This document shows positions 25,267 to 64,000 of a stretch of 64,000 nucleotides of DNA, piece by piece (the stretch's first letter is position 1; every line of letters starts with the position of its first letter). A program made the translations under genes and the position numbers. This stretch comes from Hyphomonadaceae bacterium. Lineage in GTDB: Bacteria; Pseudomonadota; Alphaproteobacteria; Caulobacterales; Aquidulcibacteraceae. The notes below the pieces were generated by a model that did no database searches, was not told the origin of the DNA, and saw only the letters and a program-made list of their open reading frames with translations. The DNA lies in NCBI GenBank assembly GCA_023384105.1, contig JAHDXR010000003.1:248001-312000 (forward strand). The letters run 5' to 3'.

Positions 25267-26007
25267 TTAGCTCACCTTCAGCCACAGCGCGTTCGGCCCG
25301 AGCTTCTGCACGAACGCCTCATGCGCGGCGCGCTCTTCGTCTGTGCCGCGCGGCGCGAGCGGCGTCGGCCGCGGCTGCCGGCGTACGAACTCGATCGACC
25401 GCTGCGCCGCCGCGCTTTCGGACGCCGCCTCGCCCGCATCGAACGCCAGCCGCTGCTCGCGCCCGCCTTTGAGATGCAGATACACTTCCGCGAGAATGCG
25501 CGAGTCGATCAGAGCGCCGTGTCCGCCCGCGCCTTTGCGCGCGGCAAGATCGAAGCCGTAGCGGTCGAGCTGGAAGCGCTTCGCCAACGCATCGAGCGAG
25601 CACGACGCGCCAGGAAAGCGCTTGCGCGCGATGGCCAGCGTATCGACGAAGCGGCCGTTGCCCAGGATGTCGCGGCCGCAGCGCCTCAGCTCGGCGTTGA
25701 GGAAGCCCTGGTCGAACGCCGCGTTGTGCGCAACCAGGGGCGAGTCGGCGATGAAATCGAGCAGTTCTTCCGCCGCCTCGGCGAAGCGGCGGTGGTTGCG
25801 CAGAAACTCGAGCCGCAGGCCGTGGACCCGCACGACCTCCTCCGGCACGTCCCGCTCGGGATTGAAATAGGCGTGAAATTCGCGGCCCGTGCGCTCGAGA
25901 TTGATCACCTCCACACAGCCGATCTCGACAATGCGGTCGCGCTGCTTCGGGTCCTCGTGCTCCGGAAAGACGCCCGTGGTTTCCGTGTCGAACAAAATCT
26001 CGCGCAT
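25267..26007 (-). CDS. dnaQ: DNA polymerase III epsilon subunit (proofreading exonuclease)
   Basis: 246 residues. DEDDh exonuclease motifs: Exo I FDTETTG with Asp7 and Glu9, Exo II around LVAHNAAFDQGFLN, and Exo III HGALIDSRILAEVY with the catalytic His and Asp. The C-terminal tail after about residue 185 is the segment that contacts the alpha subunit. The gene is the last of the ppsR-maf-aroE-coaE-dnaQ operon, nine bases after coaE, an order known next to alphaproteobacterial origins. Confidence 0.96.
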   Translation of the reverse strand: MREILFDTETTGVFPEHEDPKQRDRIVEIGCVEVINLERTGREFHAYFNPERDVPEEVVRVHGLRLEFLRNHRRFAEAAEELLDFIADSPLVAHNAAFDQGFLNAELRRCGRDILGNGRFVDTLAIARKRFPGASCSLDALAKRFQLDRYGFDLAARKGAGGHGALIDSRILAEVYLHLKGGREQRLAFDAGEAASESAAAQRSIEFVRRQPRPTPLAPRGTDEERAAHEAFVQKLGPNALWLKVS

Positions 26008-26016
26008 GCTTTGGGG

Positions 26017-26610
26017 CTAATCCTGTTCGCGCAGCGCGTCCAGCACGGCGCGGGCCTGCGCGCGCGTGGCCTCCAGCGACCCGCCGGTGTCGATGACGAA
26101 ATCGGCCCGCGCGCGCTTTTCCGCATCGGGCGTCTGCCGCGCCAGGATCGCTTCGAACTTCTCCGCCGTCATGCCGGGCCGCGCCAGCACGCGCTCACGC
26201 TGCACGTCGGCCGCGGCCGAAACCACCGCCACCTTGTCCACCAGCTTCGCGCCGCCGCTCTCGAACAGCAGCGGAATGTCGAGCACGACCACCTTCGTTC
26301 CCGCGTCGCGGTTCGTCTGCAGAAACTCCGCCTGCGCCTGGCGCACCAGCGGATGCACGATCATTTCCAGCCGCTTGATCGCCGCCTCGTCGCCGACCAC
26401 CCGGCGCGACAGCGCTTCGCGATCGACCGCGCCATCCACGGTCACGCCGGGAAACGCGGCTTCCACCGGCGCCGCCGCCGCGCCGCCGGCGGCGTAGAGC
26501 GCATGCACCGCGGCGTCCGAGTCGAACACCGGCGCGCCCTCCTCCGCGAACATCTTGCCCACGGTGGACTTACCCATGCCGATCGAGCCGGTGAGGCCGA
26601 GAACAATCAT
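26017..26610 (-). CDS. coaE: Dephospho-CoA kinase
   Basis: 197 residues from ATG 26610; the longer upstream frame is a shifted reading of aroE. CoaE catalyses the last step of CoA synthesis. The P-loop [13 protein letters not shown] lies at 5-17, [10 protein letters not shown] supplies the catalytic aspartate region, and [11 protein letters not shown] and the [18 protein letters not shown] signature near the C-terminus are typical. The start overlaps the aroE stop (ATGA, 26607-26610), indicating translational coupling. Confidence 0.97.
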
Positions 26611-27428: not shown

Positions 27429-28015
27429 GCGCGCACGACCCCATGTTCGCGCAGGAACGCCAGCAGCGGCAGCAAGGGCAGTCCGAGCACGGAGAAGAAA
27501 TCCCCTTCCACGCGCTCGAACAATTGCGCGCCCAAGCCTTCGAGCTGATAGGCGCCGACGGAGCGCAGCACATCGTCCCCCGCGTACCGCATGTAATCGT
27601 CGAGGAAATCGTCCGAGAACGCGCGCATCTTCAGCTTCGGCGTATCGATATGCCGCCAGATCGCTGCGCCGTCGCGGGTGATCGTCGCCGCAGTGATCAG
27701 TTCGTGCGTGCGGCCACGCAGGCGCAGCAGATGCTGGCGCGCTTCGGCCGCGCTCCTCGGCTTGTCCAGCACCTCGCCCTCGACCGCCAGCATCTGGTCG
27801 GCGCCGATCACCAGGCCGGCGCGTTTCCGTGAAACGGAAAGCGCTTTCAGCTCCGCCAGCGCATTGGCCTGATCGCGCGGACTCAAGCCCTCCCGGCGCA
27901 GGCTGGCCTTGGCCCCCTCCTCATCCATCTGCGGAAGCTCGACCGCGAAATCGAGCCCCGCCGCCTGCAGCATCTGCCGGCGCGCTGCGCTTCCGGAAGC
28001 GAGGATCAGCGTCAC
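27425..28015 (-). CDS. maf: Maf family nucleotide pyrophosphatase
   Basis: 196 residues. Maf proteins hydrolyse non-canonical or selected nucleoside triphosphates to monophosphates. The N-terminal LILASGSAARRQMLQAAGL holds the conserved SxSxxR signature, GADQMLAVEGEVLDKP the acidic and Lys residues, and RSVGAYQLEGLGAQLFE the C-terminal substrate loop. Sequence alone does not separate the dTTP/UTP type from the m7GTP type. It overlaps ppsR and aroE by four bases on each side. Confidence 0.95.
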   Translation of the reverse strand: MTLILASGSAARRQMLQAAGLDFAVELPQMDEEGAKASLRREGLSPRDQANALAELKALSVSRKRAGLVIGADQMLAVEGEVLDKPRSAAEARQHLLRLRGRTHELITAATITRDGAAIWRHIDTPKLKMRAFSDDFLDDYMRYAGDDVLRSVGAYQLEGLGAQLFERVEGDFFSVLGLPLLPLLAFLREHGVVRA

Positions 28016-28839
28016 TGTTCGCGATGCTCCGCCAATAGGTTGAGCACTTGCGCCGCCGTCTCCTCGATCGAGCGCCGCGAGACGTCGATCGTCGGCCAGC
28101 CCTCGCGCTCGAACAGTTTCTGCGCTTCCATCACTTCCCGCCGCACCGCGTCTTCATCTGTATAATCGCCGGCGCGCGTTTCCTTCATCGCGGCGAGACG
28201 ATTGCGCCGGATATGAATGAGCCGGTCCGCCGTGATCAGCAGCCCCACCACCAGCGGGCGGTTTTCCTGGAACAGAATGTCCGGCAGCGGCACGCCCGGC
28301 ACGATCGGCACGTTCGCCGCCTTCACGCCGCGATGGGCCAGATAGACGCTGGTCGGCGTTTTCGAGGTGCGACTGACGCCGACGAGAATCACGTCGGCCG
28401 CCAACAGCTCCACCGCCTGCTGGCCGTCGTCGTGGTACATGGCGTAATCGAGCGCGTCGATGCGCTTGAAATATTCCGCATTGAGCCGCCGCGCCGCCCC
28501 TACCCGGTGGTTGAGCTCCAGCCCGAGATAGCGCGAGGTGATGTCCAGCACCGGATCGAGCACCGCCACGCACGGCATGTTCATCCTGGCGCAGGCGTCT
28601 TCGAGCATCGCCCGATGTTCCAGGCTCGACAGCGTGAACATCACCAGGCCCGGCGCCTCCTCGATCTCCCGGATCACCCGCTCCAACTGTCGCGCCGAGC
28701 GGACCAGGAAGTAGGAGTGTTCCACCGGCAGGATGTTGTCGAACTGGGCGCAGGTGGCGCGCATGACCCCGGCCAGGGTCTCGCCGGTCGAGTCCGAGAC
28801 CAGGTGCACATTGAAATAGATGGCCAGCCGTTCGCGCAT
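28012..28839 (-). CDS. ppsR: PPDK regulatory protein family (DUF299, RP001 type)
   Basis: 275 residues from ATG 28839 (MRERLAIYFNVHLVSDSTGET); a longer frame reaches upstream into the candidate origin but shows no coding signal. The family phosphorylates and dephosphorylates pyruvate phosphate dikinase or PEP synthase. The P-loop-like GVSRTSKTPTSVYLAHRG and the IRRNRL segment near the C-terminus are signatures. In Rickettsia the homologue is RP001, one of the two genes flanking the origin; in Caulobacter it likewise faces hemE across the origin. It is the first gene of a five-gene coupled operon. Confidence 0.93.
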   Translation of the reverse strand: MRERLAIYFNVHLVSDSTGETLAGVMRATCAQFDNILPVEHSYFLVRSARQLERVIREIEEAPGLVMFTLSSLEHRAMLEDACARMNMPCVAVLDPVLDITSRYLGLELNHRVGAARRLNAEYFKRIDALDYAMYHDDGQQAVELLAADVILVGVSRTSKTPTSVYLAHRGVKAANVPIVPGVPLPDILFQENRPLVVGLLITADRLIHIRRNRLAAMKETRAGDYTDEDAVRREVMEAQKLFEREGWPTIDVSRRSIEETAAQVLNLLAEHREQ

Positions 28840-29181
28840 GTCGGCGTCACATATCAGGCCTGGCGAGGATGTGGACAAGCTGTTGGCGAGCGCCCGGCTA
28901 AACCGGCCGCGAGCCGGAGAGGCGTCCCCGAGGCGCGGTTTTCCCTTCCCGGGCGCCCGATTCCCTAAACGGCTTTCCACAGCGGGACCCTGCGGCCAAA
29001 AAGGAATCGCCCCCGCGCCCTCTCGACAACAAAGCCTCTATCGCCAACAGCTTCCGCCGCGGCACCGGCTTGAATAAGTCTGTGGACGGCCTGTGAACAT
29101 CCGAGTTGCCCTGGTTTACGGATCGCCACAACAACGAGTCCTCATTAATCGAGATTCAGATTTTAAGTTTGGAAGGAAGAC
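28840..29181. other. Probable chromosomal replication origin (oriC) between ppsR and hemE
   Basis: 342 non-coding bases between divergent ppsR and hemE, the gene pair known to flank the origin in Caulobacter and Rickettsia. Visible signals: TGTGGACAA at 28870-28878, whose complement TTGTCCACA differs from the DnaA box TTATCCACA at one position; weaker boxes CTTTCCACA (28973-28981), TGTGGACGG (29081-29089) and TGTGAACAT (29092-29100); four GANTC sites (28959, 29004, 29136, 29153), the CcrM methylation sequence; and an AT-rich stretch at 29141-29170 (22 of 30 bases A/T) as a possible unwinding site. The last also serves the hemE promoter region. No full CtrA site was found, and no dnaA gene lies in the window. 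Confidence 0.7.
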
Positions 29182-30222
29182 ATGGCCGATCGGGAAAGCC
29201 CTCCCGCGCTTTTGCGCGTTCTGAACGGAGAGAGGCTCGATCCGCCCCCGATCTGGATCATGCGTCAGGCCGGCCGGTATCTCCCGGAGTACCGGGAGCT
29301 GCGGAAACGGACGAAGAGCTTCCTCGACTTCTGCTACTCCCCTTCCCTGGCGACCGAAGCGGTGATGCAGCCGTTGCGGCGTTTCCCGCTCGATGCGGCG
29401 ATCCTGTTCTCGGACATTCTGGTCGTGCCGGACGCGCTGGGCCAGAAGGTCTGGTTCGTCGAAGGCGAAGGGCCGCGGCTTGAACCGCTGCTGCCGGAGA
29501 CGGCCTGGAAGCTGGGCGAGCCGGAGAAAGCGATCCAACGCCTTTCGCCGGTCTATGAAACGGTGGAGCGGATCAAGGCTCAACTCGAGCCCGGCATAGC
29601 GCTGATCGGCTTCGCCGGCGCGCCGTGGACGGTGGCGACCTACATGCTGCAGGGCCGCGGCGGCGATAAGGACGAAGCCCGCCGCGCCATTTATCAGCGT
29701 CCCCAGGAGATGGACGCGCTTCTCGCCGCTCTGGTGGAAACCACCGCGCAACATCTAGCCGCGCAAGTCAGGGCCGGCGCCGATTGCCTGCAGCTGTTCG
29801 AGAGCTGGGCCGAAGGCCTGCCACCGCAGGCGTTCCAGCGTGTCGTGATCCACCCGACGCGCAAGCTGGTGCGGCGCCTGCGCGAGCTTGGCGTTGGCGC
29901 GCCGATCATCGGTTTCCCGCGCGGCGCCGGCGCGCAGATCGCGGCTTACGCCAACGAAACGGGCGTCAACGCGCTGGGCGTGGATACGCAGACGCCCGCC
30001 CAGTTCGCTTACGACGTTGCGCCCGAGGGCATGCCTTTGCAGGGCAATCTCGATCCGCAAACCCTGGTCGTCGGCGGCGAAGCGCTGGAGCGCGCCGCGC
30101 GCGATGTGCTGATCGCCTTCAAGAGCGCGCCGCACATCTTCAATCTCGGCCACGGCATCACGCCGGACGCGACGCCGGAAAATGTGGCGCGGCTGGTCCA
30201 GGTCGTGAAAGGCGGCGTATGA
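29182..30222 (+). CDS. hemE: Uroporphyrinogen decarboxylase
   Basis: 346 residues. It converts uroporphyrinogen III to coproporphyrinogen III. The N-terminal signature WIMRQAGRYLPEYRE (25-39) holds the substrate-binding arginines, and GFAGAPWTVATYMLQG is the second signature. GFPRGAGAQ, GVDTQTP and the C-terminal FNLGHGITPDATPENV are also conserved. GGAAGGAAG precedes the ATG. The stop overlaps the hemH start (ATGA). Its place beside the origin matches Caulobacter. Confidence 0.98.
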   Translation: MADRESPPALLRVLNGERLDPPPIWIMRQAGRYLPEYRELRKRTKSFLDFCYSPSLATEAVMQPLRRFPLDAAILFSDILVVPDALGQKVWFVEGEGPRLEPLLPETAWKLGEPEKAIQRLSPVYETVERIKAQLEPGIALIGFAGAPWTVATYMLQGRGGDKDEARRAIYQRPQEMDALLAALVETTAQHLAAQVRAGADCLQLFESWAEGLPPQAFQRVVIHPTRKLVRRLRELGVGAPIIGFPRGAGAQIAAYANETGVNALGVDTQTPAQFAYDVAPEGMPLQGNLDPQTLVVGGEALERAARDVLIAFKSAPHIFNLGHGITPDATPENVARLVQVVKGGV

Positions 30223-36726: not shown

Positions 36727-36987
36727 ATGAAGTTCACCGTCAACGTGGAATGCTCGCCGGAGGAAGCGCGTCGCTTCATGGGTCTGCCGGACGTCACCCC
36801 GATCAACGAGAAGCTGGTCGAGGAGATGGGCAAGCGCATGGAAGCCAATCTCAAGCTGATGAGCGGCGAGAGCCTGATGAGCTCCTGGATGAGCGTGGGC
36901 TCCCAGGCCCAGGACGCCTTCGTGAAGCTGATGACCTCGGGCGTGACCGCCGCGGCCGCCGCCAGCGCTCCACGTGAAAAGCCCTAA
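36727..36987 (+). CDS. DUF6489-like small protein
   Basis: 86 residues from ATG 36727. It begins MKFTVNVECSPEEARRFMGL followed by PDVTPINEKLVEEMGKRM, a pattern remembered from short alphaproteobacterial proteins annotated DUF6489, then a helical Met-rich stretch and an Ala-rich C-terminus. No signal or membrane segment is present. Similar proteins resemble phasin-like polypeptides, but no function is established. mnmE starts 21 bp after the stop, in the same direction, within a parS-like sequence. Confidence 0.72.
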   Translation: MKFTVNVECSPEEARRFMGLPDVTPINEKLVEEMGKRMEANLKLMSGESLMSSWMSVGSQAQDAFVKLMTSGVTAAAAASAPREKP

Positions 36988-41622: not shown

Positions 41623-42411
41623 ATGCGCGCTTTGGCGATCGCCAACCAGAAGGGCGGCGTGGGCAAGACGACGACCGCCATCAACCTTGGCACCGCGCTG
41701 GCGGCCGCCGGGAAGGGGGTTCTGATCTTCGACACCGATCCGCAGGGCAATGCCTCGACCGGTCTCGACATCCATCCGCACGACCGCAGCGTCACCAGCT
41801 ACGACGTGCTCGTCGGCCAGCTGCCGCTGGCGAAAGCAATCCTGCCGACGAAGGTGCCGCAGCTCTACATCACGCCCGGCGACGCGCGCTTGTCGGGTGT
41901 CGAAGGCGAACTGATGGGCGAAGCGCAGCCGCAGTTTTTCCTGCGCAACGCGATCGAACAATTCCGCGCGGAGCAGACGCTCGGCGTCGATTACGTCCTG
42001 ATCGATTGCCCGCCGTCGTTGAACGTTCTGACGGTGAATGCGCTCACCGCGGCCGATGGCGTGCTGGTGCCGCTGCAGACGGAATACTTCGCGCTCGAAG
42101 GCCTCGCGCAATTGCTCGCCACCATCAATGCGGTGAAGGCGAACCTCAATCCGGCGCTCGATATTCAAGGCGTCGTGCTCACCATGTACGACAAGCGCAC
42201 CACGCTTTCGGATCAAGTGGCGCAAGAGGTGAGGGCGCACTTCCCGGACAAGGTCTATGAGACGGTGATCCCGCGCAACGTGCGCATCAGCGAGGCGCCG
42301 AGTCACGGACTGCCCGCGATCATCTACGATCAGAACGCCGCCGGCAGCAAAGCCTACATCAAGCTTGCCAAGGAGCTGATCGATCGCGAGCGGATGCTCA
42401 ACGCTGCGTAG
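41623..42411 (+). CDS. parA: Chromosome partitioning ATPase ParA
   Basis: 262 residues. ParA dimerises on ATP, binds DNA non-specifically and moves ParB-parS complexes. The deviant Walker A is NQKGGVGKTTTAINL (8-22), with DTDPQGNAST (Walker A prime), DYVLIDCPPSLNVLTVNAL (Walker B) and QTEYFALEGLAQLL following. It is a Soj-type chromosomal ParA without an N-terminal DNA-binding domain. An AAGGAG ribosome-binding site precedes the ATG. parB follows after 90 bp. Confidence 0.98.
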   Translation: MRALAIANQKGGVGKTTTAINLGTALAAAGKGVLIFDTDPQGNASTGLDIHPHDRSVTSYDVLVGQLPLAKAILPTKVPQLYITPGDARLSGVEGELMGEAQPQFFLRNAIEQFRAEQTLGVDYVLIDCPPSLNVLTVNALTAADGVLVPLQTEYFALEGLAQLLATINAVKANLNPALDIQGVVLTMYDKRTTLSDQVAQEVRAHFPDKVYETVIPRNVRISEAPSHGLPAIIYDQNAAGSKAYIKLAKELIDRERMLNAA

Positions 42412-42433
42412 TGAATAAGCGGGAAATTTTTAC

Positions 42434-42456
42434 TGGTGGGCAAGGATTTCCCACCA
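42434..42456. other. Hairpin between parA and parB
   Basis: TGGTGGG (42434-42440) pairs with CCCACCA (42450-42456) around a nine-base AT-containing loop, followed by AAGTTTTAAG. It may be a weak terminator or an attenuator that sets the ParA:ParB ratio. The surrounding 42412-42501 is the AT-richest part of the locus. No parS match was seen in it. Confidence 0.45.
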
Positions 42457-42501
42457 AAGTTTTAAGCATACCGAATCGGGTCGGGTGCAGGAGACGGGAC
42501 G

Positions 42502-43602
42502 ATGAGCGAGTTTGCGAGAAGGGGATTGGGACGCGGCCTCTCGGCTTTGCTCGGCGAACCCGTGCGCACCGAACCGCCGCGCCCCGCCAACAGCTTCGCG
42601 CCGCAACCGCAGCCGCAACCGCAGCCCGAACCGCCGCGCGCGCCGATCGAGCCGCCGCGCAATGTGTTCGAGCTGCCGATCACCAGCGCGCCGCCGCAGC
42701 CGGCGCCCGCGCCTACTCCGGCCGCGCCGCCTGTTGTGAACGAAGCGCCGGCCACGCCGCCGGCCGCGCCTGCTTCCGCTGCGACGCCCGCGCCGGCTCA
42801 AGCCGCTGCGCCTGAAAGCGGCCCGCGCTCGGTCCCGATCGATCTGGTGCAGCGCAATCCGCACCAGCCGCGCAAGCATTTCGACGAAGCCGACCTGGGC
42901 GACCTCGCCGGTTCGATCCGCACGCACGGCGTGCTGCAGCCGATCCTGGTGCGCCCGATCGCCGGCGGCAAATACGAGATCGTCGCCGGCGAACGCCGCT
43001 GGCGCGCGGCGCAGCGCGCGGGCCTGCACGTCATCCCGGCGGTGATCCGCGAGCTCGACGAAGTCGAAGTGCTCGAGATCGCCATCGTCGAGAACGTCCA
43101 GCGCACGGATCTGAACCCGATCGAAGAAGCGCAAGGCTTCCAGGCGCTGATCGACCGCTTCGGCCGCACGCAGGAAGAGATCGCCGAAGCGGTCGGCAAG
43201 TCGCGCCCGCACATCGCCAACATGCTGCGGCTGCTGAAGCTGCCGGACGATTTGCAGGAGATGGTGCGCGACGGCCGCCTGAGCGCCGGCCACGCGCGCG
43301 CGATCCTGACGGCGCCCGATCCGCACGGCCTGGCGCGGCGCGCCATCGCGGAAGGGCTCAACGTCCGCGAAGTCGAGCGCATCGCCCAGCAGGCCAAGGA
43401 CGAAAAGCACGGCCCGCGCGTCACGCCCGGCGCGGTCGAGACCAAGAGCGCCGACACTCGCGCGCTGGAGCAATCGCTCTCCAACGCGCTCGGCCTCGAC
43501 GTCACGATCACCGACAAAGCCGGCGCCGGCGAAGTGAAGATCGCCTACAAGACGCTGGAGCAGCTCGACGACGTGATCCGCCGCTTGCGCGGCGGGTTCT
43601 GA
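42502..43602 (+). CDS. parB: Chromosome partitioning protein ParB with a long Pro/Ala-rich linker
   Basis: 366 residues. ParB is a CTPase clamp that loads at parS and spreads. The N-terminal ParA-activating peptide is RRGLGRGLSALLGE (6-19). A low-complexity Pro/Gln/Ala-rich linker spans about residues 20-108, longer than in most ParBs. The catalytic core has LVQRNPHQPRKHF, the C-motif GERRWRAA (163-170), ENVQRTDLNPIEEAQGFQ and the HTH region TQEEIAEAVGKSRPHIANML, which reads parS. The C-terminal dimerisation domain ends in the conserved VIRRLRGGF. It ends only three bases from a convergent stop. Confidence 0.97.
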   Translation: MSEFARRGLGRGLSALLGEPVRTEPPRPANSFAPQPQPQPQPEPPRAPIEPPRNVFELPITSAPPQPAPAPTPAAPPVVNEAPATPPAAPASAATPAPAQAAAPESGPRSVPIDLVQRNPHQPRKHFDEADLGDLAGSIRTHGVLQPILVRPIAGGKYEIVAGERRWRAAQRAGLHVIPAVIRELDEVEVLEIAIVENVQRTDLNPIEEAQGFQALIDRFGRTQEEIAEAVGKSRPHIANMLRLLKLPDDLQEMVRDGRLSAGHARAILTAPDPHGLARRAIAEGLNVREVERIAQQAKDEKHGPRVTPGAVETKSADTRALEQSLSNALGLDVTITDKAGAGEVKIAYKTLEQLDDVIRRLRGGF

Positions 43603-44689: not shown

Positions 44690-45835
44690 ATGAACAGCGT
44701 CTACGCGTCCCTCGGCGCCACCGTGTTCGAGACCATGTCGCGGCTCGCGGCGGAGAAGGGGGCGGTCAATCTCGGCCAGGGCTTTCCCGAGGACGACGGT
44801 CCGCGCGACATTCTCGAAGCGGCCGCGCGCGCCACGCTCGACGGCCCCAACCAGTATCCGCCGATGCGCGGCCTGCCCGAGCTGCGCCAGGCCGTCGCCG
44901 CGCACTATCGCGAACATCAGCGAATCGAACTCGACTGGCAGCGCGAAATCACCATCACCTCCGGCGCCACCGAGGCCATCGCCGCGGCGCTGCTCGCGTT
45001 CATCGAACCGGGCGACGACGTGGTGCTGTTCGAGCCGATGTACGACGCCTACCTGCCGATGGTGCGCCGGGCCGGCGGGATTCCGCGCATCGTGCGCCTC
45101 AACCCGCCGCACTGGCGGCTCGAGCGCGATGCGCTCGCCGCGGCGTTCAGCGAAAGGACGCGCGTCGTCGTCATCAACACGCCGCACAACCCCTGCGCCA
45201 GCGTGATCAGCGGCGAGGAGCTGGCGCTGCTCGCCGAATTCTGCCGCGCCCATGACGCGATCGTCGTCAGCGACGAAGTGTGGGAGCACGTCACCTTCGA
45301 CGGCCTGCAGCACGCGTCGATGCTGCAGGCGCTGCGGGAGCGCACGCTGAAGATCGGCTCGGCCGGCAAGATGTTTTCGCTCACCGGCTGGAAGGTCGGC
45401 TTCGCCTGCGGCGCGCCGGCGCTGACGGAGCAGTTCGTCAAGGCGCACCAGTTCCTGACCTTCACCACGCCGCCCAATCTGCAGCGCGCCGTCGCCTACG
45501 CGCTGGGCAAGGAGCGCGCTTACTTCGAGGACATGCGCGCAGGCTTCCAGCGTGCGCGCGATCGCCTGGTCGGCGCGCTGGCGGGGGAGGGCTTCGTGCT
45601 GCTGCCGGCGAGGGGCGCCTACTTCGTCAGCATCGATCTCGCCGCCTCCGGCGTCGGCATGGGCGACGTCGCGTTCGCGCGGCACGCGATCGAACACGGC
45701 GTCGCCACCATTCCGCTCTCCGGCTTCTACGCCACGCCGGAGCCGCCGAACCTCGTGCGCCTCTGCTTCGCCAAGCGCGACGATACGCTCGACCGCGGCG
45801 CCGAGGCGCTAATCAGGGCCAAGCGCTCAGCGTAG
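44690..45835 (+). CDS. PLP-dependent aminotransferase class I/II
   Basis: 381 residues from ATG 44690 (MNSVYASLGATVFETMSRLA); an upstream TTG in frame is less likely. Fold-type I features: NLGQGFPEDDGP, NQYPPMRGLPELRQAVAAHY, TSGATEAIAAALLAF, NTPHNPCASVI, the acid in VVSDEVWEHVTFDG, and the PLP lysine in GSAGKMFSLTGWKVGF. It most resembles the methionine/kynurenine aminotransferase subgroup (YbdL/KAT-like). The exact substrate is uncertain. Its end overlaps the convergent DUF5694 gene by nine bases. Confidence 0.93.
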   Translation: MNSVYASLGATVFETMSRLAAEKGAVNLGQGFPEDDGPRDILEAAARATLDGPNQYPPMRGLPELRQAVAAHYREHQRIELDWQREITITSGATEAIAAALLAFIEPGDDVVLFEPMYDAYLPMVRRAGGIPRIVRLNPPHWRLERDALAAAFSERTRVVVINTPHNPCASVISGEELALLAEFCRAHDAIVVSDEVWEHVTFDGLQHASMLQALRERTLKIGSAGKMFSLTGWKVGFACGAPALTEQFVKAHQFLTFTTPPNLQRAVAYALGKERAYFEDMRAGFQRARDRLVGALAGEGFVLLPARGAYFVSIDLAASGVGMGDVAFARHAIEHGVATIPLSGFYATPEPPNLVRLCFAKRDDTLDRGAEALIRAKRSA

Positions 45836-46909
45836 CACGCGCCGCGCGTCGACGAGGCGGACATCCGTCATCATGCCGAGATAGGCGTCGAACCACGGCT
45901 TGTGCGCGGAGCCGACGATGACGAGCACGCGCGCGCCGGGCTGGCCGGCGATGGCTTCTCGGATGTTCGCGACCTGACGCAGGTTGCGCGTCTCCCATTC
46001 CGCAACCCGCGTGCGGCCCACATCGTTCGGGCTGCGCCGCTGAATCATCGACAGCCACTGCGCGTCGGAATCGGTCTGTCCGGCCGCGGGCGAGTTCAGC
46101 ATGCGGTAGGTCGCCAGCGCCTGTTGCGGCGTCGTCAGGTTTTGCGCGGCTTCGCGCATCGGGCGGAAGCGCTCGTCCGCCATCATCTCGCCCACCCACG
46201 GCTCGGCGAAGAACGCTTCCAGATCCGCCATGCGGCTGAGGACGACGTCGTCGCTGGCGTGATCGTCGACCGGATAGAGCCGCTCCAGCCCCAGCCGCGC
46301 GGCGAGGCGCGCGCCGATCAAGTGGTTTTCGTTCCGGCGCGTGTCGTACTGCGCCATCTGCTCCGCCATCGGCGCGCTGACGCCGTCCTCGGCGATGCGT
46401 TCGGCCGGATCGAGCCGCCACCATTGCACCAGCGCCGAGTGCGGATCGCCCGAGGCCACGAACAACGCCGCAAGCCGGCGGCGCTGCGCCGCGGTCGGCT
46501 CGGCTGGCCAGTCGGCGAGCGTGCGGCGCGCTTCCGCCTCGGCGTCCGCCATGTCCAGTTGCAGGCCGTGACGGACGCCGGCGGCCATGGTCATCGCCCG
46601 GCCGCCATAGCTGGTGGCGACTTCGGGGTAGATTTCGCGATAGCGCCAGAGTGCGTCGATGCTTTCGCCGGACAAGGCTTCGATAGCGATGATGTCGGGC
46701 CGGAACGCTGCGAGCCGGTCGAGCAGGGGCTCGAGCACCGCCGGATCGAAGTCGTCAGGCGTTCCGCTCAGGTGCGGCGTCGCCAGCACCAGCACTTGCG
46801 TCGGCTCGCCCACGACGCGGCGCTGATAGGCGCGCGGATCGAAGTCCTGGGCGAAAGCCGGGGCGACGGCCGCCGCGAGAAGCGTTGCGGCGGCGAGTAC
46901 GGTTTTCAT
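45827..46909 (-). CDS. DUF5694 domain secreted protein
   Basis: 360 residues from ATG 46909; an 843-codon open frame continues upstream, but that part is a shifted reading of the symporter gene. The signal peptide is MKTVLAAATLLAAAVAPAFAQ. The mature protein has VLVLATPHLSGTPDDF, AFRPDIIAIEALSGE and a C-terminal VLVIVGSAHKPWFDAYL, resembling the TraB/GumN/DUF5694 group with a conserved His in TPHL and a GSAH motif. Enzymatic activity is unproven. The last nine bases overlap the aminotransferase gene. Confidence 0.8.
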   Translation of the reverse strand: MKTVLAAATLLAAAVAPAFAQDFDPRAYQRRVVGEPTQVLVLATPHLSGTPDDFDPAVLEPLLDRLAAFRPDIIAIEALSGESIDALWRYREIYPEVATSYGGRAMTMAAGVRHGLQLDMADAEAEARRTLADWPAEPTAAQRRRLAALFVASGDPHSALVQWWRLDPAERIAEDGVSAPMAEQMAQYDTRRNENHLIGARLAARLGLERLYPVDDHASDDVVLSRMADLEAFFAEPWVGEMMADERFRPMREAAQNLTTPQQALATYRMLNSPAAGQTDSDAQWLSMIQRRSPNDVGRTRVAEWETRNLRQVANIREAIAGQPGARVLVIVGSAHKPWFDAYLGMMTDVRLVDARRVLR

Positions 46910-46974
46910 GCTGTCCTCCCGAAAGCAGTTCTTTTCAGGAGACGGCGCCAGGCGCGCGTTTGGATGCAGGCCCG

Positions 46975-48294
46975 TCAGGGCGACGGCGCAAGCGGCGCGA
47001 CGCGCGGCTCGCCCGCCGGGTCGGCTTCGCCGCGCGACACCACCGTCGCCACCACGAGGTCGCCGGTGACGTTGAGCGTGGTCCGGCACATGTCGAGGAA
47101 GCGGTCGACGCCGAGGATGAGGCCGATGCCCTCCGGCGGCACCCCGACCATCACCAGGATCATCGCGATCACCGGCAGCGACCCCGCCGGCACGCCGGCC
47201 GTGCCGATGCCGCCGAGGATGCACACCAGCATGACGACGATCTGCTGCTGGAGCGAAAGGTCGATGCCGAAGAACTGCGCCAGGAACAGCACGGTCACGC
47301 CCTCGAACAGGGCGGTGCCGTTCTGGTTGGCGGTGGCGCCGACGGTCAGCACGAAGCGCGAGATCTTGCGCGGCAGCTTCAGTTCGGTCTCCGCCGCGCG
47401 CAGCGAAACGGGGAGGGTGGCGTTGGACGATGCGGTGGAGAAGGCCACGACCATCGGTTCGCGCACGTCGGCGAAGAACCGGAACGGATTGCGCCCGCCG
47501 AAGATCAGCACCACCAGCGGGTAGACCACGAACATGTGGATCGCCATCGCCGCCACGGCGACGCCTGTGAACGCCGCGAGCCGCAGCAGCAGGTCCCAGC
47601 CGAACAGCGCCGCGAGATTGAACATGAGGCACGCGATCGCGATCGGCGCCAGTTTGATGACGAGGTTGATGAGCTTCATCATCACCTCGAACATCCCGGC
47701 GATGGTCAGCTGCAGCTGATCGGTGGCGGGACTCTTCACCATCACCAGGCCGATGCCGAAGAACAGCGCGAACACCATCACCGGCAGCACCAGATTGGCG
47801 CTGGCGGCGGCGAACACGTTCGACGGCACCAGATCGAGGAAGAACTGGCCGAGATTCACGCTTTGCGGCGCGTTGGCGACGATGCCGGCGGCGCCTTCGG
47901 CGCCTTGCGCCAGGAGCTGTTGCGCCAGCGCCGGATCGACCCCGTCGCCCGGCCGCAACACGTTGACCATGCCGAGGCCGATGAGCACGGCGATGGTGGA
48001 GATCACCACCGTCATCAGCAGCGTCTTCCAGCCGACGCGGCCCAGCGCGCCCAGATCGCCCATCTCGGCGACGCCCATCACCAGCGCGCTGAACAACAGC
48101 GGCAGCACCAGCATGAACAGGAGGCGCAGGAAAATCTGGCCGAGCGGGCCGGTGATGTTGTCGGTCAGCCAGATCACCCAGGCGGTGTCGGGCCCGAGAT
48201 TGAGATTGACATAGAGGCCCGCGCCCAAGCCGACGGCGAAGCCAAGCAGCATCAGCCAATGCAGCGGGAGGCCGCCCTTCTTGGTCGCTTCCAT
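46975..48294 (-). CDS. Dicarboxylate/cation symporter (SLC1/DAACS family)
   Basis: 439 residues with eight predicted membrane helices and two hairpins. The family signatures are present: a serine-rich HP1 STASSNATLPVSLRAAE and the TM7 motif GATANQNGTALFEGVTVLF (in place of NMDGT), followed by HP2 GGIGTAGVPAGSLPVIAMIL and TM8 VDRFLDMCRTTLNVTGDL with the substrate-binding Asp, Arg and Asn. It probably takes up C4-dicarboxylates or acidic amino acids with sodium or protons. The terminator at 48422-48455 separates it from the small ORFs upstream. Confidence 0.93.
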   Translation of the reverse strand: MEATKKGGLPLHWLMLLGFAVGLGAGLYVNLNLGPDTAWVIWLTDNITGPLGQIFLRLLFMLVLPLLFSALVMGVAEMGDLGALGRVGWKTLLMTVVISTIAVLIGLGMVNVLRPGDGVDPALAQQLLAQGAEGAAGIVANAPQSVNLGQFFLDLVPSNVFAAASANLVLPVMVFALFFGIGLVMVKSPATDQLQLTIAGMFEVMMKLINLVIKLAPIAIACLMFNLAALFGWDLLLRLAAFTGVAVAAMAIHMFVVYPLVVLIFGGRNPFRFFADVREPMVVAFSTASSNATLPVSLRAAETELKLPRKISRFVLTVGATANQNGTALFEGVTVLFLAQFFGIDLSLQQQIVVMLVCILGGIGTAGVPAGSLPVIAMILVMVGVPPEGIGLILGVDRFLDMCRTTLNVTGDLVVATVVSRGEADPAGEPRVAPLAPSP

Positions 48295-48421
48295 GTCTTT
48301 CCCCCGCGCCTGTTTTGTTCTGGTGAGCTTGGCTAGCGGCAGGGGCGCGCGCGATCAACCCGCGCGGTTATAGCTTTTGTTTCGGCGTGGCCCCCCGCAA
48401 ATCGAAACGCCGCCATAAGCG

Positions 48422-60053: not shown

Positions 60054-61904
60054 TTAAGCGCTCTGCGTCTCGGCCCAATCGTTCACAATGCGCTCGAGCA
60101 CCGAGAGCGGCACGGCGCCGTTGGCTAGCATGGTGTCGTGGAAGCCCTTCAGGTCGAAGCGGCCGCCCAGCGCGGCGCGGGCGCCGTCGCGCATGCGGTT
60201 GATGGCTTGGCGGCCGACCATGTAGCTGCACGCTTGGCCCGGCCACACCGCGTAGCGCTCGATCTCGGTGGTGACCGAGCTTTCCTGGTCGCCGGTCGCT
60301 TCCACCATCGAGGCGATGGCCTGTTCGCGGCTCCAGCGCTTGTGGTGCATGCCGGTGTCGACGACGAGGCGGGAGGCGCGGAAGGTCGCCGACTGCAGAT
60401 AGCCGAGCCGGCCGAGCGGGTCGTCGGCGTAGACGCCGAGTTCGTCCGCGAGTTGTTCGGCATAGAGGCCCCAGCCTTCGCTGAAGGCGCTGAAGCCGAG
60501 CATGGCGCTGCGGATGAACGGGATAGAGCCCGATTCCTGCTGGATCGAGATCTGCCAGTGATGGCCGGGCACGCCTTCGTGGTAGTTCAGCGTCGGCAGC
60601 GTGAAGCGCGGCCATTCGTGCGTGTTGCGCAGGTTGATGTAGTAGGCGCCCGGCCGCGAGCCGTCGAGCGCGGCGCGCTGGTAATAGCCGCCCGGCGCGC
60701 CGGCTTCCGTCGTCGCCGGCACGCGGCGGATTTCGAGCTGCGCCTGCGCCAGCGTGTTGAACGCCTGCGGCATCAGCGATTCGATGTGGCGGGTCTGGGC
60801 GTTGAGATCGGCCAGGATCTGGGCGCGGCCTTCGTCGGTGTTCGGATAGAGCTGATCCGGCCGGCGCGAGAGCGCCTGCACGCGCTGGGCGACGCTGCCG
60901 CGCGTCATCCCCTGGCTACGCAGGATCGCGTCCATTTCGGAATGGAATTGCCGGATGAGTTCGGCGCCCATGTCGTGGATTTCGTCCGGCGACATGGTCG
61001 TGGTGGTGCGGCTGCGCAGCGCGGCGGCGTACATCTCCGCGCCCTGCGGCAGACGCCAGATTCCCGCATCATGCACGGCGTTGCGACGCACCTCCGCCAG
61101 CGCCGCCTTCTGGCGTTCGTACGCGGGGAAGATCGCATCGCGCACCGCGGCTTCAGCCTGCGCGACATAGGCGGCGCGCTCGCTTTCGGGGATGTCGGCG
61201 ACGCTCGGCAGGCGGCGCACCAGCGTCTGCACCAGCACGGTCTGCGCCGGCGCGGTCGAGGTGAAGGCGTTCATCTGTTCGAGCGCGCGGTCGATGGCGA
61301 AGTCCGGCGGGATCACCCCGCCTGCGGCGTCTTCGCGGATGATCGCCGTTTCCTGGTCGAGCGCGCGCACATACTCGGTCAGCCGGGCCATGTAGCCGTC
61401 GGCCTCGTCGCGCGTGCGCAGCGGGTGCTGCGCGTCCATGAAGTCCGGGAAGTTGCGGTAGGCGCCGGTGAGCTGCGTCACCGCATAGGGCGCGCCCGCG
61501 CCGCCGCCGACCTCGAACGCCGACGTGGCGAGACTGTATTCGTACGACGTTTTCACCACGTCGACGGTGACGTTCTCCTGAGCGCTCAGCGCCGAGCGGT
61601 CGATCGCGTCCAGTTCGGAGATGGCGGTCTGCAGGATGGCGCGGTAGCGGCGCGCGCCGTCCTTGGAGGCGTCGCTCAGCTTGTCGATGAAACGATAGCC
61701 GGCTCGTTCCTCGGTGAGGCCGAGCGCCGTGCAGCGCTCCGGCGACTGGCGCAGGATCGCTGCAACGGTGCGGTCGAGCGTGGCGGCGAGCTGTTCGCTC
61801 GCGGTTTGCGGCGGAGCTTGCGTTTGCGCGCCGGTGGCGCAGCCGGCGAGAACAGCGGCGCCCGCGGCGCCGGCGCCCAACAGGGCGCGACGAGAAATCT
61901 GCAT
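60054..61904 (-). CDS. DUF885 family metallopeptidase, lipoprotein with Tat-type signal
   Basis: 616 residues. The N-terminus MQISRRALLGAGAAGAAVLA has SRR followed by a hydrophobic stretch and a lipobox LAGC, suggesting Tat export and lipidation. The peptidase core contains NYHEGVPGHHWQISIQQ, the HExxxGH zinc motif of the DUF885 group, and GWGLYAEQLADELG with a probable third ligand Glu. GACYMVG-like QACSYMVGRQAINRMR near the C-terminus is also typical. It is probably a periplasmic carboxypeptidase-like enzyme. The substrate is unknown. Confidence 0.9.
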   Translation of the reverse strand: MQISRRALLGAGAAGAAVLAGCATGAQTQAPPQTASEQLAATLDRTVAAILRQSPERCTALGLTEERAGYRFIDKLSDASKDGARRYRAILQTAISELDAIDRSALSAQENVTVDVVKTSYEYSLATSAFEVGGGAGAPYAVTQLTGAYRNFPDFMDAQHPLRTRDEADGYMARLTEYVRALDQETAIIREDAAGGVIPPDFAIDRALEQMNAFTSTAPAQTVLVQTLVRRLPSVADIPESERAAYVAQAEAAVRDAIFPAYERQKAALAEVRRNAVHDAGIWRLPQGAEMYAAALRSRTTTTMSPDEIHDMGAELIRQFHSEMDAILRSQGMTRGSVAQRVQALSRRPDQLYPNTDEGRAQILADLNAQTRHIESLMPQAFNTLAQAQLEIRRVPATTEAGAPGGYYQRAALDGSRPGAYYINLRNTHEWPRFTLPTLNYHEGVPGHHWQISIQQESGSIPFIRSAMLGFSAFSEGWGLYAEQLADELGVYADDPLGRLGYLQSATFRASRLVVDTGMHHKRWSREQAIASMVEATGDQESSVTTEIERYAVWPGQACSYMVGRQAINRMRDGARAALGGRFDLKGFHDTMLANGAVPLSVLERIVNDWAETQSA

Positions 61905-61978
61905 CTGTGATCCCCCTTGTTAGATCGGCCCGCATGCTAACGGCGCGCGCCGATCGCTCAATGCCGCATGCGACGAAG

Positions 61979-62773
61979 CTACAATTTGAGGCCGGCGACC
62001 ACGGGAACGTGATCGCTCGGACGCTCCCATGAGCGGCACGGCACGTGGATGTGGAACGCTTCCGCGCGTGAGGTCACAGCGACATCGCCGCTGGCCCAGA
62101 TGTGATCGAGGCGGCGGCCGCGATTGTTCTTGGTCCAATCGGGGCTTCTGTAGCTCCACCAGGTGAACAGCTTTTCCGGGTCCGGCCGGTGCAGGCGCGC
62201 GAGGTCGACGAAGCCGCCGAGGTCGCGCACGGCGTTGAGGCGGTCCGTCTCGCCCGGCGTATGGCTGACGACGTTGAGGAGCTGCTTGTGGCTCCAGACG
62301 TCATGCTCGCCCGGCGCGACGTTGAGATCGCCGACGAGGACAGTCGGCGTCGCGCCTTTGCGCTTCTTGTAGAGCCGCTTCATGCGGTCGAGCACGTCGA
62401 GCTTGTGCTTGAACTTCGGGTTGCCGATCGGATCGGGCTCGTCCGCGCCCGCGGGCACATAGAGATTATGCAGCTCGACGCCGTCGATCCTCGCGGCGGC
62501 GATGCGGGCTTCCTTCTTCGGACAGATCGGCGGCGCTTCGACCGGTTCGAGCTTCAGCTTCGAGACGATGGCCACGCCATGCCAGCCCTTCTGGCCGGCC
62601 ACATGCATGTGCTTGTAGCCGGCGTCCTTGAACGCCTTGGCCGGGAACTCGCCGTCGCGGCACTTGATCTCCTGCAAACACAAAACGTGCGGCTGCGCTT
62701 CGGCGAGGAAACGGCAAACGGCGTCGATCCGGAGCCTGACGGAATTGATGTTCCAGGTGGCGATTTTCAGCAT
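61979..62773 (-). CDS. xthA: Exodeoxyribonuclease III (AP endonuclease)
   Basis: 264 residues. It cleaves DNA at abasic sites and removes 3' blocking groups. MLKIATWNINSVRLR begins the fold; Glu35 in CLQEIKCRDGEFP is a metal ligand. YVPAGADEPD, VLVGDLNVAPGEHDVW (Asp and Asn), WWSYRSPDW, RGRRLDHIWAS and the catalytic Asp-His of SDHVPVV are all present. Upstream is a candidate small RNA gene and its terminator, so xthA probably has its own promoter. Confidence 0.97.
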   Translation of the reverse strand: MLKIATWNINSVRLRIDAVCRFLAEAQPHVLCLQEIKCRDGEFPAKAFKDAGYKHMHVAGQKGWHGVAIVSKLKLEPVEAPPICPKKEARIAAARIDGVELHNLYVPAGADEPDPIGNPKFKHKLDVLDRMKRLYKKRKGATPTVLVGDLNVAPGEHDVWSHKQLLNVVSHTPGETDRLNAVRDLGGFVDLARLHRPDPEKLFTWWSYRSPDWTKNNRGRRLDHIWASGDVAVTSRAEAFHIHVPCRSWERPSDHVPVVAGLKL

Positions 62774-62796
62774 CGGTGCTTCATGGCGTGCGCCGG

Positions 62797-62953
62797 CGAA
62801 AAAACGAAGAGGCCCGGCTCGCTTCGCGACCGGGCCTCAGAGCGCCTTGAGGGGGGCGCAGGTGCCGGCAGGGGATGTCCGGCCCTTGGCCGCCGCGCTG
62901 GATCCGTCAGCGGGGGGACGACGCCATCCAGGGGGATGTAGCGGCGGCCAGGT
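62797..62953 (-). ncRNA. Candidate small RNA with C-rich loops between lolA and xthA
   Basis: On the minus strand a promoter TTGAAT (62983-62988), 17 bases, TATATG (62960-62965) is followed by about 155 bases ending in an intrinsic terminator (stem GAGGCCCGG/CCGGGCCTC at 62809-62838, then TTCGTTTTTTC). Inside, UGGCCGCCGC pairs perfectly with GCGGCGGCCA (62941-62950 with 62887-62896), enclosing CUGGAU/AUCCAG, and two more hairpins (GCCGG/CCGGC; GCGCC/GGCGC) follow. Four unpaired segments contain CCCC or longer. No open frame with a ribosome-binding site fits. It is not recognised as 6S, 4.5S, RNase P or tmRNA. Confidence 0.6.
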
Positions 62954-63031
62954 ACGTTGCATATAGGCCACAACGGCCAAAAATTCAAGCCGCAACCCGG
63001 GGAATTGGCTTGCCAATGCAGCGCCGACTCA

Positions 63032-63688
63032 TCAGCGGCGGCGGCTTGGCGCGACCACGTCCGGCAGGCGGAACAGGCTGCGGTCGAGGCTGGCCGGGCG
63101 CGTGACCTCGGAGAGGGTGACGCGGGTGCGGGCGCCGGTGGCGTCGACCACGTCCCACGAGCGCAGCTCGCCATTGTTGAAATGCAGCGTGATGGCGCCG
63201 TCGGTTTGCCCGCTGCGGTCGCGCGCGGTGACCAGCGTCCACGGCGCCTGGCGCGAGACGCGGATAATGCGGGCGTTGCGTTCGAGATCGATGCGTTCGC
63301 CCAGGATCAGGCTGAGCGGCGTCGACCGCAACGGCGTGCGCTCGGTGGTGCGCAACGCCGTATCGCGCATGGCGACGACGCTGCCGTCGGAGACGATCAG
63401 CAGCGTGGCCGGCGGATCGTACTCGAAGCGCAGCCGGCCCGGCCGCTCGAGATAGAAGTTGCCGGCGACGCGGGCGCCGTCCGGCGCGGTCTGGACGAAC
63501 CGGCCTTGCAGGCGCTGGATCGCGTTCAGTTCCGCGTTCATGGCCGCCAGCGCTTCGGCGCGCTCGGCGCCTTCGAGCGTGACCAGGGCCGAACTCGCGG
63601 CGGCGACGGCCGCCGGACGCGGAGCTTGCGCAAGCGCCGGAGCGGCGGCGAACGCCAGGGCGGCGGCGAGGAGGAGGCGTCTCTTCAT
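63032..63688 (-). CDS. lolA: Outer-membrane lipoprotein carrier LolA-like protein
   Basis: 218 residues from ATG 63688 (MKRRLLLAAALAFAAAPALAQ), chosen for the signal peptide; in-frame ATGs lie three and about seven codons upstream. The mature domain has LNAIQRLQGRFVQTAPDGARVAGNFYLERPGRLRFEYDPP, the LolA signature, then LLIVSDGSVVAMRD and ITLHFNNGELRSWDVVDATG. It ferries lipoproteins from the LolCDE complex to the outer membrane. Gene order lolA-xthA is known in relatives. A long cruciform lies upstream. Confidence 0.92.
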   Translation of the reverse strand: MKRRLLLAAALAFAAAPALAQAPRPAAVAAASSALVTLEGAERAEALAAMNAELNAIQRLQGRFVQTAPDGARVAGNFYLERPGRLRFEYDPPATLLIVSDGSVVAMRDTALRTTERTPLRSTPLSLILGERIDLERNARIIRVSRQAPWTLVTARDRSGQTDGAITLHFNNGELRSWDVVDATGARTRVTLSEVTRPASLDRSLFRLPDVVAPSRRR

Positions 63689-63776
63689 GGGGTTCATGTG
63701 CCGCAAACGCATGGCGGAAAAAAGGGTTCTCCGGTGCGGCAGTGAGGCGTTTGGGTTCAGGTTCCGTTCAGGGGCC

Positions 63777-63931
63777 GGGGACTGGGGACTGGGGATTAGG
63801 GAGCGCAGCGTCAGCATTGGCGTCGCGCTGAGCTTGTCGAAGCGCGGCGCCGCGCACCGCGTCCCCTTCGACAAGCTCAAGGTGACGCTACCAGCGTAGC
63901 GCCGCTCCCTAATCCCCAGTCCCCAGTCCCC
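63777..63931. repeat. Nested cruciform repeat with tandem GGGGACT units
   Basis: 29-bp outer arms (63777-63805 and 63903-63931) are exact reverse complements and consist of GGGGACT repeats plus GATTAGGGAGCG. Inside, GAGCTTGTCGAAG (63830-63842) is mirrored by CTTCGACAAGCTC (63866-63878). The right CCCCAGT array continues a little beyond. The inner motif recurs at 16191-16205 and 60030-60050. It lies between lolA and the partial gene at the right edge. Confidence 0.85.
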
Positions 63932-63949
63932 AGTCCCCAGCCCCTATCC

Positions 63950-64000
63950 TCACGCGGAGCTGAAGTGCCGCCGCCAGAGCGTTTCGGCCTGATCGCCGGC
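63950..64000 (-). CDS. C-terminal end of an unidentified gene
   Basis: The last 16 codons read AGDQAETLWRRHFSSA followed by TGA (63950-63952). The codon use and amphipathic sequence look coding, but the piece is too short to identify. Its position upstream of lolA might suggest a co-directional operon, except that the cruciform repeat separates them. Confidence 0.4.
   Translation of the reverse strand, partial: AGDQAETLWRRHFSSA

Follow-up and report, generated by a model that had tools for sequence, protein, structure and literature searches.

The ppsR-hemE gap and its neighbourhood

The window analysed here is a 64,000-nucleotide stretch of contig C24 (248001-312000), in a 3.67-Mb draft genome of 28 contigs (labelled G000 in our comparisons). 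The organism is a Terricaulis-type member of the Caulobacterales, with its closest hemE matches in a Hyphomonadaceae MAG (88%) and a Terricaulis MAG (77%). The feature of interest is a 342-bp gap between two divergent genes, ppsR and hemE. Its bounds are exact: the start codon of ppsR lies at 28837-28839 on the minus strand, and the ATG of hemE is at 29182 on the plus strand. We take ppsR, COG1806, DUF299 and RP001 to be names of the same gene. The features of the region are as follows.

28012..28839, minus strand: ppsR (COG1806/DUF299, RP001-type), the first flank (NCBIfam PRK05339, 324 bits, cut-off 225)
28840..29181: candidate oriC, the ppsR-hemE intergenic gap (gene calls and NCBIfam)
28870..28878, minus strand: DnaA box 1 (TTGTCCACA), one mismatch to TTATCCACA, then a conserved GCTGTTG
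28957..28965: CGATTCC block with the GANTC site at 28959; CGATTCC occurs in 28 of 28 same-genus gaps
28973..28981, plus strand: DnaA box 2, weak (CTTTCCACA), two mismatches; at least 7 of 9 bases match in 21 of 28 aligned rows
29003..29009: GGAATCG block with the GANTC site at 29004; GAATC in 28 of 28 and GGAATC in 21 of 28 same-genus gaps
29081..29100, minus strand: two weak DnaA boxes, TGTGGACGG and TGTGAACAT, with starts 11 bp apart (sequence and alignment)
29106..29114, plus strand: conserved TTGTCCCGG-like block (TTGCCCTGG in the window), a possible very weak box (1.38 bits per column)
29129..29140, plus strand: CAACAACGAGTC, the most conserved block (1.97 bits per column), overlapping the GANTC site at 29136
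29130..29173: AT-rich patch, a candidate unwinding element (68% AT over 40 bp, in a region of 67% GC)
29182..30222, plus strand: hemE, the second flank (NCBIfam TIGR01464, 370 bits, cut-off 303)
36966..36981: parS-like site CGCTCCACGTGAAAAG, just before mnmE and 7.8 kb from hemE, with a similar site in relatives
41623..43602, plus strand: parA and parB, origin-linked genes for chromosome segregation (NCBIfam matches)

On the hemE side the genes run hemE, hemH, a hemJ-like gene, rho, mnmE, mnmG, rsmG, parA, parB and leuS, and on the other side ppsR is followed by maf and aroE. An earlier reading of the DNA, made from its sequence only, had stated that neighbouring genes mostly point away from the gap. 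This holds close to the gap, where ppsR, maf and aroE lie to its left in minus orientation and hemE, hemH, the hemJ-like gene and rho to its right in plus orientation; farther out the strands are mixed. Divergent hemE and ppsR/COG1806 genes with a gap between them, one of the marks of a hemE/COG1806-flanked alphaproteobacterial oriC, are thus present. The same reading had likened this context to that of Caulobacter, and the gene pair does match the one at Cori, the origin mapped experimentally in Caulobacter (described in PMC1914354).

CcnA is an RNA described at the Caulobacter origin. A search of positions 28500-29500 against Rfam returned one chance match within hemE and nothing in the gap, so no known RNA is supported there.

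Elsewhere in the window, a minus-strand open reading frame of 843 codons (45827-48358) has no NCBIfam match and is perhaps spurious. It is overlapped in another frame by a 439-codon open reading frame (46975-48294) that is 80-87% kept in two related genomes, G033 and G053.

Conserved blocks within the gap

The gap was compared with its counterparts in relatives. In 28 of 29 same-genus loci ppsR and hemE adjoin with a gap of about 321-367 bp; the other, L109, is an incomplete locus. The set of 29 gaps referred to below as the genus set consists of 28 same-genus gaps and that of L122, from genus g11 of the same family. Left out of the counts were L015, L016 and L018, whose gap sequences equal those of L110, L111 and L119, and L017 (95% in PpsR, like L096); L022 was left out of some counts, and the alignment has 28 rows, without L122, L022 and the duplicates. 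A further 15 loci are called Caulobacteraceae-like, a label taken from record titles and gap length rather than from a tree. The mean gap length is 343 bp in the genus set versus 516 bp in those 15 loci.

Conservation in the 28 same-genus gaps is punctuated, with the same blocks at aligned places: TGTGGACAAG at 28870, CGATTCC, a TCCACA box, GAATC, the TGTGGACAA..TGTGGACA pair, TTGTCCCG, CAACAACGAGTC and then AT-rich DNA. The near-consensus DnaA box reported earlier (TTGTCCACA, minus strand, 28870-28878) was recovered, and it is identical in 22 of the 28 rows, with 7 or 8 of 9 bases matching in 27. The weaker boxes were found as well, one of them with at most two mismatches at 28973-28981 and still weaker ones at 29081-29100. 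Box 2 is unremarkable by itself, as 17% of the gap's 9-mers are equally conserved. The second box of the weak pair starts 37 bp ahead of CAACAA in 26 of the 29 gaps of the genus set. The TTGTCCCGG-like block is the eighth highest conservation peak of the gap; compared by eye with the DnaA consensus, its genus form matches at 5 of 9 positions and its window form at 4 of 9.

The AT-rich patch noticed earlier was likewise confirmed as a 40-mer with 68% AT from about 29130. Among some 2,499 further 40-mers across 100 kb, only 2 equal its AT richness, as expected of an oriC, and the patch is less distinct in G051 (19 other 40-mers as rich) and G054 (85 others). In G048 the 345 bp before hemE contain box 1, three GANTC sites and CAACAACGAGTC.

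Sites chosen from the window before the alignment was made were more conserved than random positions (p=0.013 for the boxes and p=0.0008 for GANTC, by random placement within the gap). Conservation of the gap as a whole was rejected as evidence for an origin: the gap ranks 11th of 16 intergenic stretches, with 25% of its columns at 90% conservation or more (0-51% in the other tested stretches). Nine more stretches were skipped for having too few orthologues, and some of the stretches may hold unannotated genes. Because overall conservation is ordinary, the case depends on the identity of the conserved blocks.

DnaA boxes compared with chance

The window has 4 sites with at most one mismatch to TTATCCACA and 64 with at most two; the gap holds one of each kind, the second with two mismatches. 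In a plain count at up to two mismatches the gap has 2 sites, versus 4 at about 25.9-26.4 kb and 3 at about 63.6 kb. With a graded score the gap only narrowly leads a field of about 284 windows (350 bp each, taken from 100 kb; 3.9 vs 3.8), and at a stricter threshold it is tied (2.1 vs 2.1). The gap's single strong box is unexceptional in the sampled parts of its own contig. The DnaA-box signal of the window genome alone is weak, barely above background.

Among generic DnaA-box clusters over about 100 kb, that of the gap comes first in 8 of 12 genomes with the looser threshold and in 7 with the stricter one, where one of the 7 is a tie. G048 fails clearly, with one box at the looser threshold and 12 windows that score better. 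In larger sampled stretches the gap ranks first in G033 and G053 and third in G032. Several DnaA boxes conserved among relatives, a hallmark of an oriC, are therefore present, though weak in G048 and in the window genome when it is taken by itself; the strength of the boxes as evidence comes from the comparison with relatives and not from the window genome. The box scores, and the gene calls used for skew, were made with our own simple scripts.

The four sites with at most two mismatches at 25901-26353 lie within 342 bp of coding DNA on the minus strand, between secB and aroE, in genes that are presumably dnaQ/coaE.

CtrA sites, GANTC sites and methylation

The genome encodes CtrA (NF045991, 425 bits, cut-off 350), GcrA (PF07750, over its cut-off) and a CcrM homologue (NF050803, 610 bits, below the cut-off of 830). 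CtrA sites were scanned for in the form TTAA-N7-TTAA with at most one mismatch. The window's gap has none, in agreement with the earlier statement that full CtrA sites are missing, and a single two-mismatch site lies at 29145; the several TTAA-N7-TTAA sites that mark a CtrA-gated origin of the Cori type were thus not found at this threshold. At the same threshold, 18 of 28 same-genus gaps have no CtrA site, versus 0 of 15 Caulobacteraceae-like gaps.

The remaining 10 same-genus gaps have single sites. One is exact, 7 of the 10 lie within 60 bp of hemE, and five of the gaps have one common site, TTAATCA(G/C)GATTCAA. On average the genus set has 0.34 sites per gap versus 0.07 in shuffles (maximum 0.21), and the Caulobacteraceae-like gaps 2.20 versus 0.06. 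A complete loss of CtrA sites in the genus is not claimed, since the residual single sites exceed the shuffles. The suggestion that CtrA regulation may differ from that in Caulobacter is therefore supported for the genus, with this residue of single sites. In the wider family, sites are above expectation (uncorrected P <=0.03) in the gaps read from g2, g4-g8, g10, g12 and g13, and absent from those read from g3 (4 of 4), g9 (1) and g14 (3 of 3). Genome-wide, the CtrA consensus has 11 matches versus 4 in a reversed control, which speaks only weakly for an unchanged CtrA specificity.

GANTC sites show a different pattern. The four that had been reported in the gap were found at 28959, 29004, 29136 and 29153; the first three are near-invariant in the genus and the fourth is not. 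The genus set has 4.34 GANTC sites per gap versus 1.53 in shuffles, the Caulobacteraceae-like gaps 2.53 versus 2.16, and other alphaproteobacterial gaps 2.36 versus 1.79. Only 2 of about 288 windows in the window genome exceed the gap's count of four. No other window matches the gap's count in G032, G046, G044 or G053, and more sites than in the gap are found in five windows of G048, two of G054 and one of G047. GANTC sites are known in Caulobacter origins, where deletion of ccrM left initiation undisturbed according to PMC3973325, so a role for them here is only possible.

Segregation genes and strand skew

Partition genes lie on the hemE side, with parAB 12-14 kb to the right of the gap. ParB exceeds the cut-off of TIGR00180 parB_part with 200.5 bits; none of the ParA models reaches its own cut-off. 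Searches for canonical parS 16-mers, with two patterns and up to two mismatches, found none in the window's own genome. The parS-like site before mnmE has 3-4 mismatches to the parS pattern, and 11 of 12 genomes have a similar one between +7.1 and +8.5 kb; G048 has GGTTCCACGTGGAACC at +9.2 kb instead. The site, CGCTCCACGTGAAAAG, falls at the end of a short open reading frame, so its conservation may be that of coding sequence.

Cumulative GC skew had been proposed as a check on the origin. In all 12 genomes the raw minimum lies 6-36 kb toward the hemE side (+17 kb on the window's contig). Sampled skew on C24 is mostly negative to about 290 kb and mostly positive beyond, and in G032 the sampled stretches are mostly negative to the left of the hemE region and mostly positive to its right. 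Third-codon-position skew depends strongly on gene strand (an effect of about -0.11), and a strand correction was therefore applied. With the 12 genomes pooled, corrected skew is -0.10 over the final 5 kb to the left of hemE and +0.01 over the 5 kb that follow on the right. From there to +40 kb its values range from -0.03 to 0.06, and past that point they are 0.07-0.14.

Genome by genome, the best corrected change-point falls no more than 1 kb from the gap in the window's genome, G053, G031 and G054. In G048, G034 and G044 the gap is in the support interval or at most about 0.5 kb outside it, which brings the total to 7 of 12. The change-point lies elsewhere in the other five: G032 (+35 kb), G046 (+36), G047 (+36, interval from +6), G033 (+12) and G051 (+21). 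Placing the change at the gap costs these five genomes about 26, 20, 5, 14 and 2 log-likelihood units, respectively. On the window's contig the preferred position depends on the fit: it is +27 kb in a wider fit of 206 genes, where the gap loses only 0.5 units, and the gap itself in a narrower one. The skew check thus came out divided: the pooled corrected step is at the gap, while the raw minima in every genome and the corrected change-points in five are not.

These displaced turns speak for another explanation, namely that the gap is a mere divergent promoter of ppsR and hemE under DnaA and GcrA/CcrM (GANTC) control, with the origin farther along on the hemE side, close to parAB or around +35 kb, the place at which raw skew turns. 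Many Caulobacter promoters also carry DnaA boxes, as described in PMC4468827, and many promoters are methylated by CcrM (PMC11514494). The best other box clusters, however, are at unrelated sites (G032 +24.8 kb, G046 +53.3 kb and G047 +57.2 kb). The skew flip also moves although gene order is nearly identical in the window, G032, G033 and G053: from hemE to the window's end the order is kept in these three genomes, with a few genes missing or inserted at about 44-49 kb, so an inversion does not explain the shifted change. Local skew varies over tens of kb, and the pooled step stands at the gap. We consider the promoter-only explanation highly unlikely. Raw GC skew is displaced by gene strand and by local variation and was therefore rejected as a pinpoint; as a guide to the position of the origin, skew is only approximate.

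A second, sharper step in corrected skew was seen at about +35 to +40 kb from hemE (window positions of about 61000-64000; G032, G046 and G047), and no rearrangement was seen there in G032. A second origin at +35 kb was considered and rejected, as no recurring DnaA-box cluster is found there.

The dnaA locus

The origin might instead adjoin dnaA, as it does in many bacteria outside the Alphaproteobacteria, and a skew minimum beside dnaA had been named as an observation that would speak against the gap. In the window's own draft genome dnaA is on a separate contig (C4). In same-genus genomes that consist of a single contig it is on the hemE side, 130 kb from hemE in G032, 115 kb in G033 and 224 kb in G053, the last two distances assuming that the contigs are circular. 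The Caulobacter dnaA lies near the origin on the opposite side.

There are DnaA boxes upstream of dnaA, two in the window's genome and three in G032, where they slightly outscore the hemE gap. Corrected skew in short flanks also steps up across dnaA, from -0.015 to 0.054 in the window's genome, from -0.042 to 0.065 in G053 and from -0.008 to 0.073 in G032. There is thus a small step at dnaA, but it is not the main one in G032, where the whole stretch between hemE and dnaA was covered: raw skew there is already positive at about 2,046 to 2,110 kb, starting about 95 kb before dnaA, and drops to almost nothing in the surroundings of dnaA itself (2,140 kb), which places the main change elsewhere. 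Besides the 115-224 kb that separate the two loci, both of the mapped alphaproteobacterial origins cited here are at hemE as their sources describe them (PMC1914354, PMC6650430). An origin beside dnaA is hardly credible in this organism.

The CAACAACGAGTC block and the DnaA protein

CAACAA is found in all 28 same-genus gaps and the CAACAACGAGTC 12-mer, within two mismatches, in 27. The 12-mer is found in 0 of 57 further alphaproteobacterial gaps and in 1 of 20 gaps from other genera of the family (G012). It contains the repeat CAA CAA CGA, or 3'-GTT GTT GCT on the lower strand, between the boxes and the AT-rich patch. A 3-base repeat on the right strand and at a fixed spacing between boxes and AT-rich DNA, the arrangement of a BUS/DnaA-trio origin, is thus present here.

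Other alphaproteobacterial gaps often have period-3 repeats at the same place and strand, such as CTACTA, CAACAA and CTACAACAACTACTAC (L064), and L094 has CAACAACAACAAC five bases past a perfect TTATCCACA. CWACWA was looked for in the 130 bp nearest to hemE, in 57 non-redundant gaps from other genera without the Caulobacteraceae-like ones; the tally was 23 on the plus strand versus 2 on the minus strand. Of 90 composition-matched patterns it ranks third, and the two that equal its plus-strand count are C-led triplet pairs as well. The 15 Caulobacteraceae-like gaps have no CWACWA on the plus strand.

A published definition of the DnaA-trio (PMC8287927) asks for three or more 3'-NAN-5' trios no farther than 16 bp from a DnaA box. 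Read from the sequence, the CAACAACGAGTC block has no central adenine and so is not a DnaA-trio by this definition. In B. subtilis the central adenine is read by Asn187 and thymine works poorly, according to PMC10721633. A trio survey suspected trios without a central adenine among the 15% of genomes in which it detected none (PMC8287927). By its place and repeat, CAACAACGAGTC is a candidate thymine-centred DnaA-trio-like element and may work like a DnaA-trio; no title among the literature matches listed on DnaA-trios, Alphaproteobacteria, CtrA or GANTC treats such a trio.

The window's genome encodes DnaA (L002, on C4; TIGR00362, 290 bits, below the cut-off of 344). DnaA was read in 28 of 28 same-genus loci and in 59 of 61 others (L290 and L300 have no readable frame), and two genomes had no match. 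In the genus it is divergent (L002, L258-L285), with a Walker A motif of HSSPGCGKT or similar versus YGGVGLGKT and the Walker B context DDFHRICGK. All 28 same-genus proteins have Glu at position 187 (B. subtilis numbering) and Gln at 183 and 190. Glu187 is also present in g3, g5, g10, g11 and g14. Asn187 is found in g2 and g8, whose gaps carry CTACTG or TTACTA/TTACTAC. Gln190 and Lys202 are common to genera with other repeats, Lys202 to nearly all alphaproteobacterial DnaA read.

A strict co-variation of residue 187 with the central base of the trio was not established, because there are exceptions: Glu187 with CTACTA or CTACCACTA (G013, G024), Asn187 with CAACAA (L081), and Tyr187 with both. 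The pairing of residue and repeat, which is confounded by descent and has these exceptions, is suggestive.

A bolder idea is that DnaA and the origin co-evolved an altered opening code in this genus and the sister genera closest to it, in which a 3'-GTT trio would be read by Glu in place of Asn187 and Gln in place of Ile190, while CtrA gating was given up and the three fixed GANTC sites, one of them fused to the trio, became the timing signal. As a whole this is speculative and we think it rather unlikely. If it were true, DnaA of the genus would be more active on CAACAACGA than on CTACTACTA, and Glu187Asn would switch the preference. Given a near-invariant repeat with a central thymine and an altered residue at the reading position of DnaA, the idea of trios without a central adenine becomes testable.

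Proposed working of the probable origin

We conclude that this Caulobacterales bacterium very probably has its chromosomal origin (oriC) in the gap, in the position that Cori occupies in Caulobacter. The original suggestion of an origin between ppsR and hemE is supported by the gene context, the box blocks aligned in 28 gaps, the AT-rich patch and the pooled corrected skew step.

By analogy with known origins, DnaA would bind box 1 (28870) and the weak boxes (28973 and 29081-29100). A DnaA filament would then grow toward hemE and capture one strand at CAACAACGA, and the AT-rich patch would open and let the helicase load. Since CtrA sites are mostly missing and three GANTC sites are near-invariant, timing is probably set by DnaA itself, perhaps with CcrM methylation, rather than by CtrA sitting on the origin.

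Comparison with known origins

Among the literature matches listed on Terricaulis, no report of this genus's origin was found, and a little-studied branch of the Caulobacterales gains a defined candidate origin.

Cori of Caulobacter crescentus, as described in PMC1914354, PMC4468827 and PMC3973325, is like the gap in its flanking genes, its weak DnaA boxes, its AT-rich patch, its GANTC sites and a partition locus nearby. Unlike the gap, which has 0 CtrA sites at up to one mismatch, Cori is described as having five CtrA sites and two G-boxes (PMC1914354, PMC4468827). The gap differs from Cori, too, in its near-invariant GANTC positions and shorter length.

Hyphomonas neptunium, which we take to belong to the same bacterial order as the window organism, is the second comparison. 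Its marker-frequency maximum is close to hemE, although its GC skew, dnaA and DnaA sites gave no clear answer (PMC6650430), and it is thus a precedent for an origin near hemE that skew does not show clearly. Its parAB is about 7 kb from hemE, and it has two perfect parS sites (PMC6650430), in contrast to none at up to two mismatches here.

The third comparison is with the BUS module of Bacillus subtilis. The order of boxes, spacer, 3-base repeat and AT-rich DNA is the same, and the repeat is on the expected strand (PMC8287927, PMC10721633). The repeat here is 3'-GTT versus 3'-GAT, the nearest box is very weak, and Glu is in the place of Asn187 in 28 of 28 same-genus DnaA proteins read.

The location is well supported and is an ordinary one for an alphaproteobacterial origin. 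The lineage itself departs from the known systems in its scarce CtrA sites, its fixed GANTC sites, its presumed opening element and its DnaA. It offers a natural contrast to Caulobacter, since in this lineage CtrA is encoded yet its sites are scarce at the candidate origin, and GANTC is fixed.
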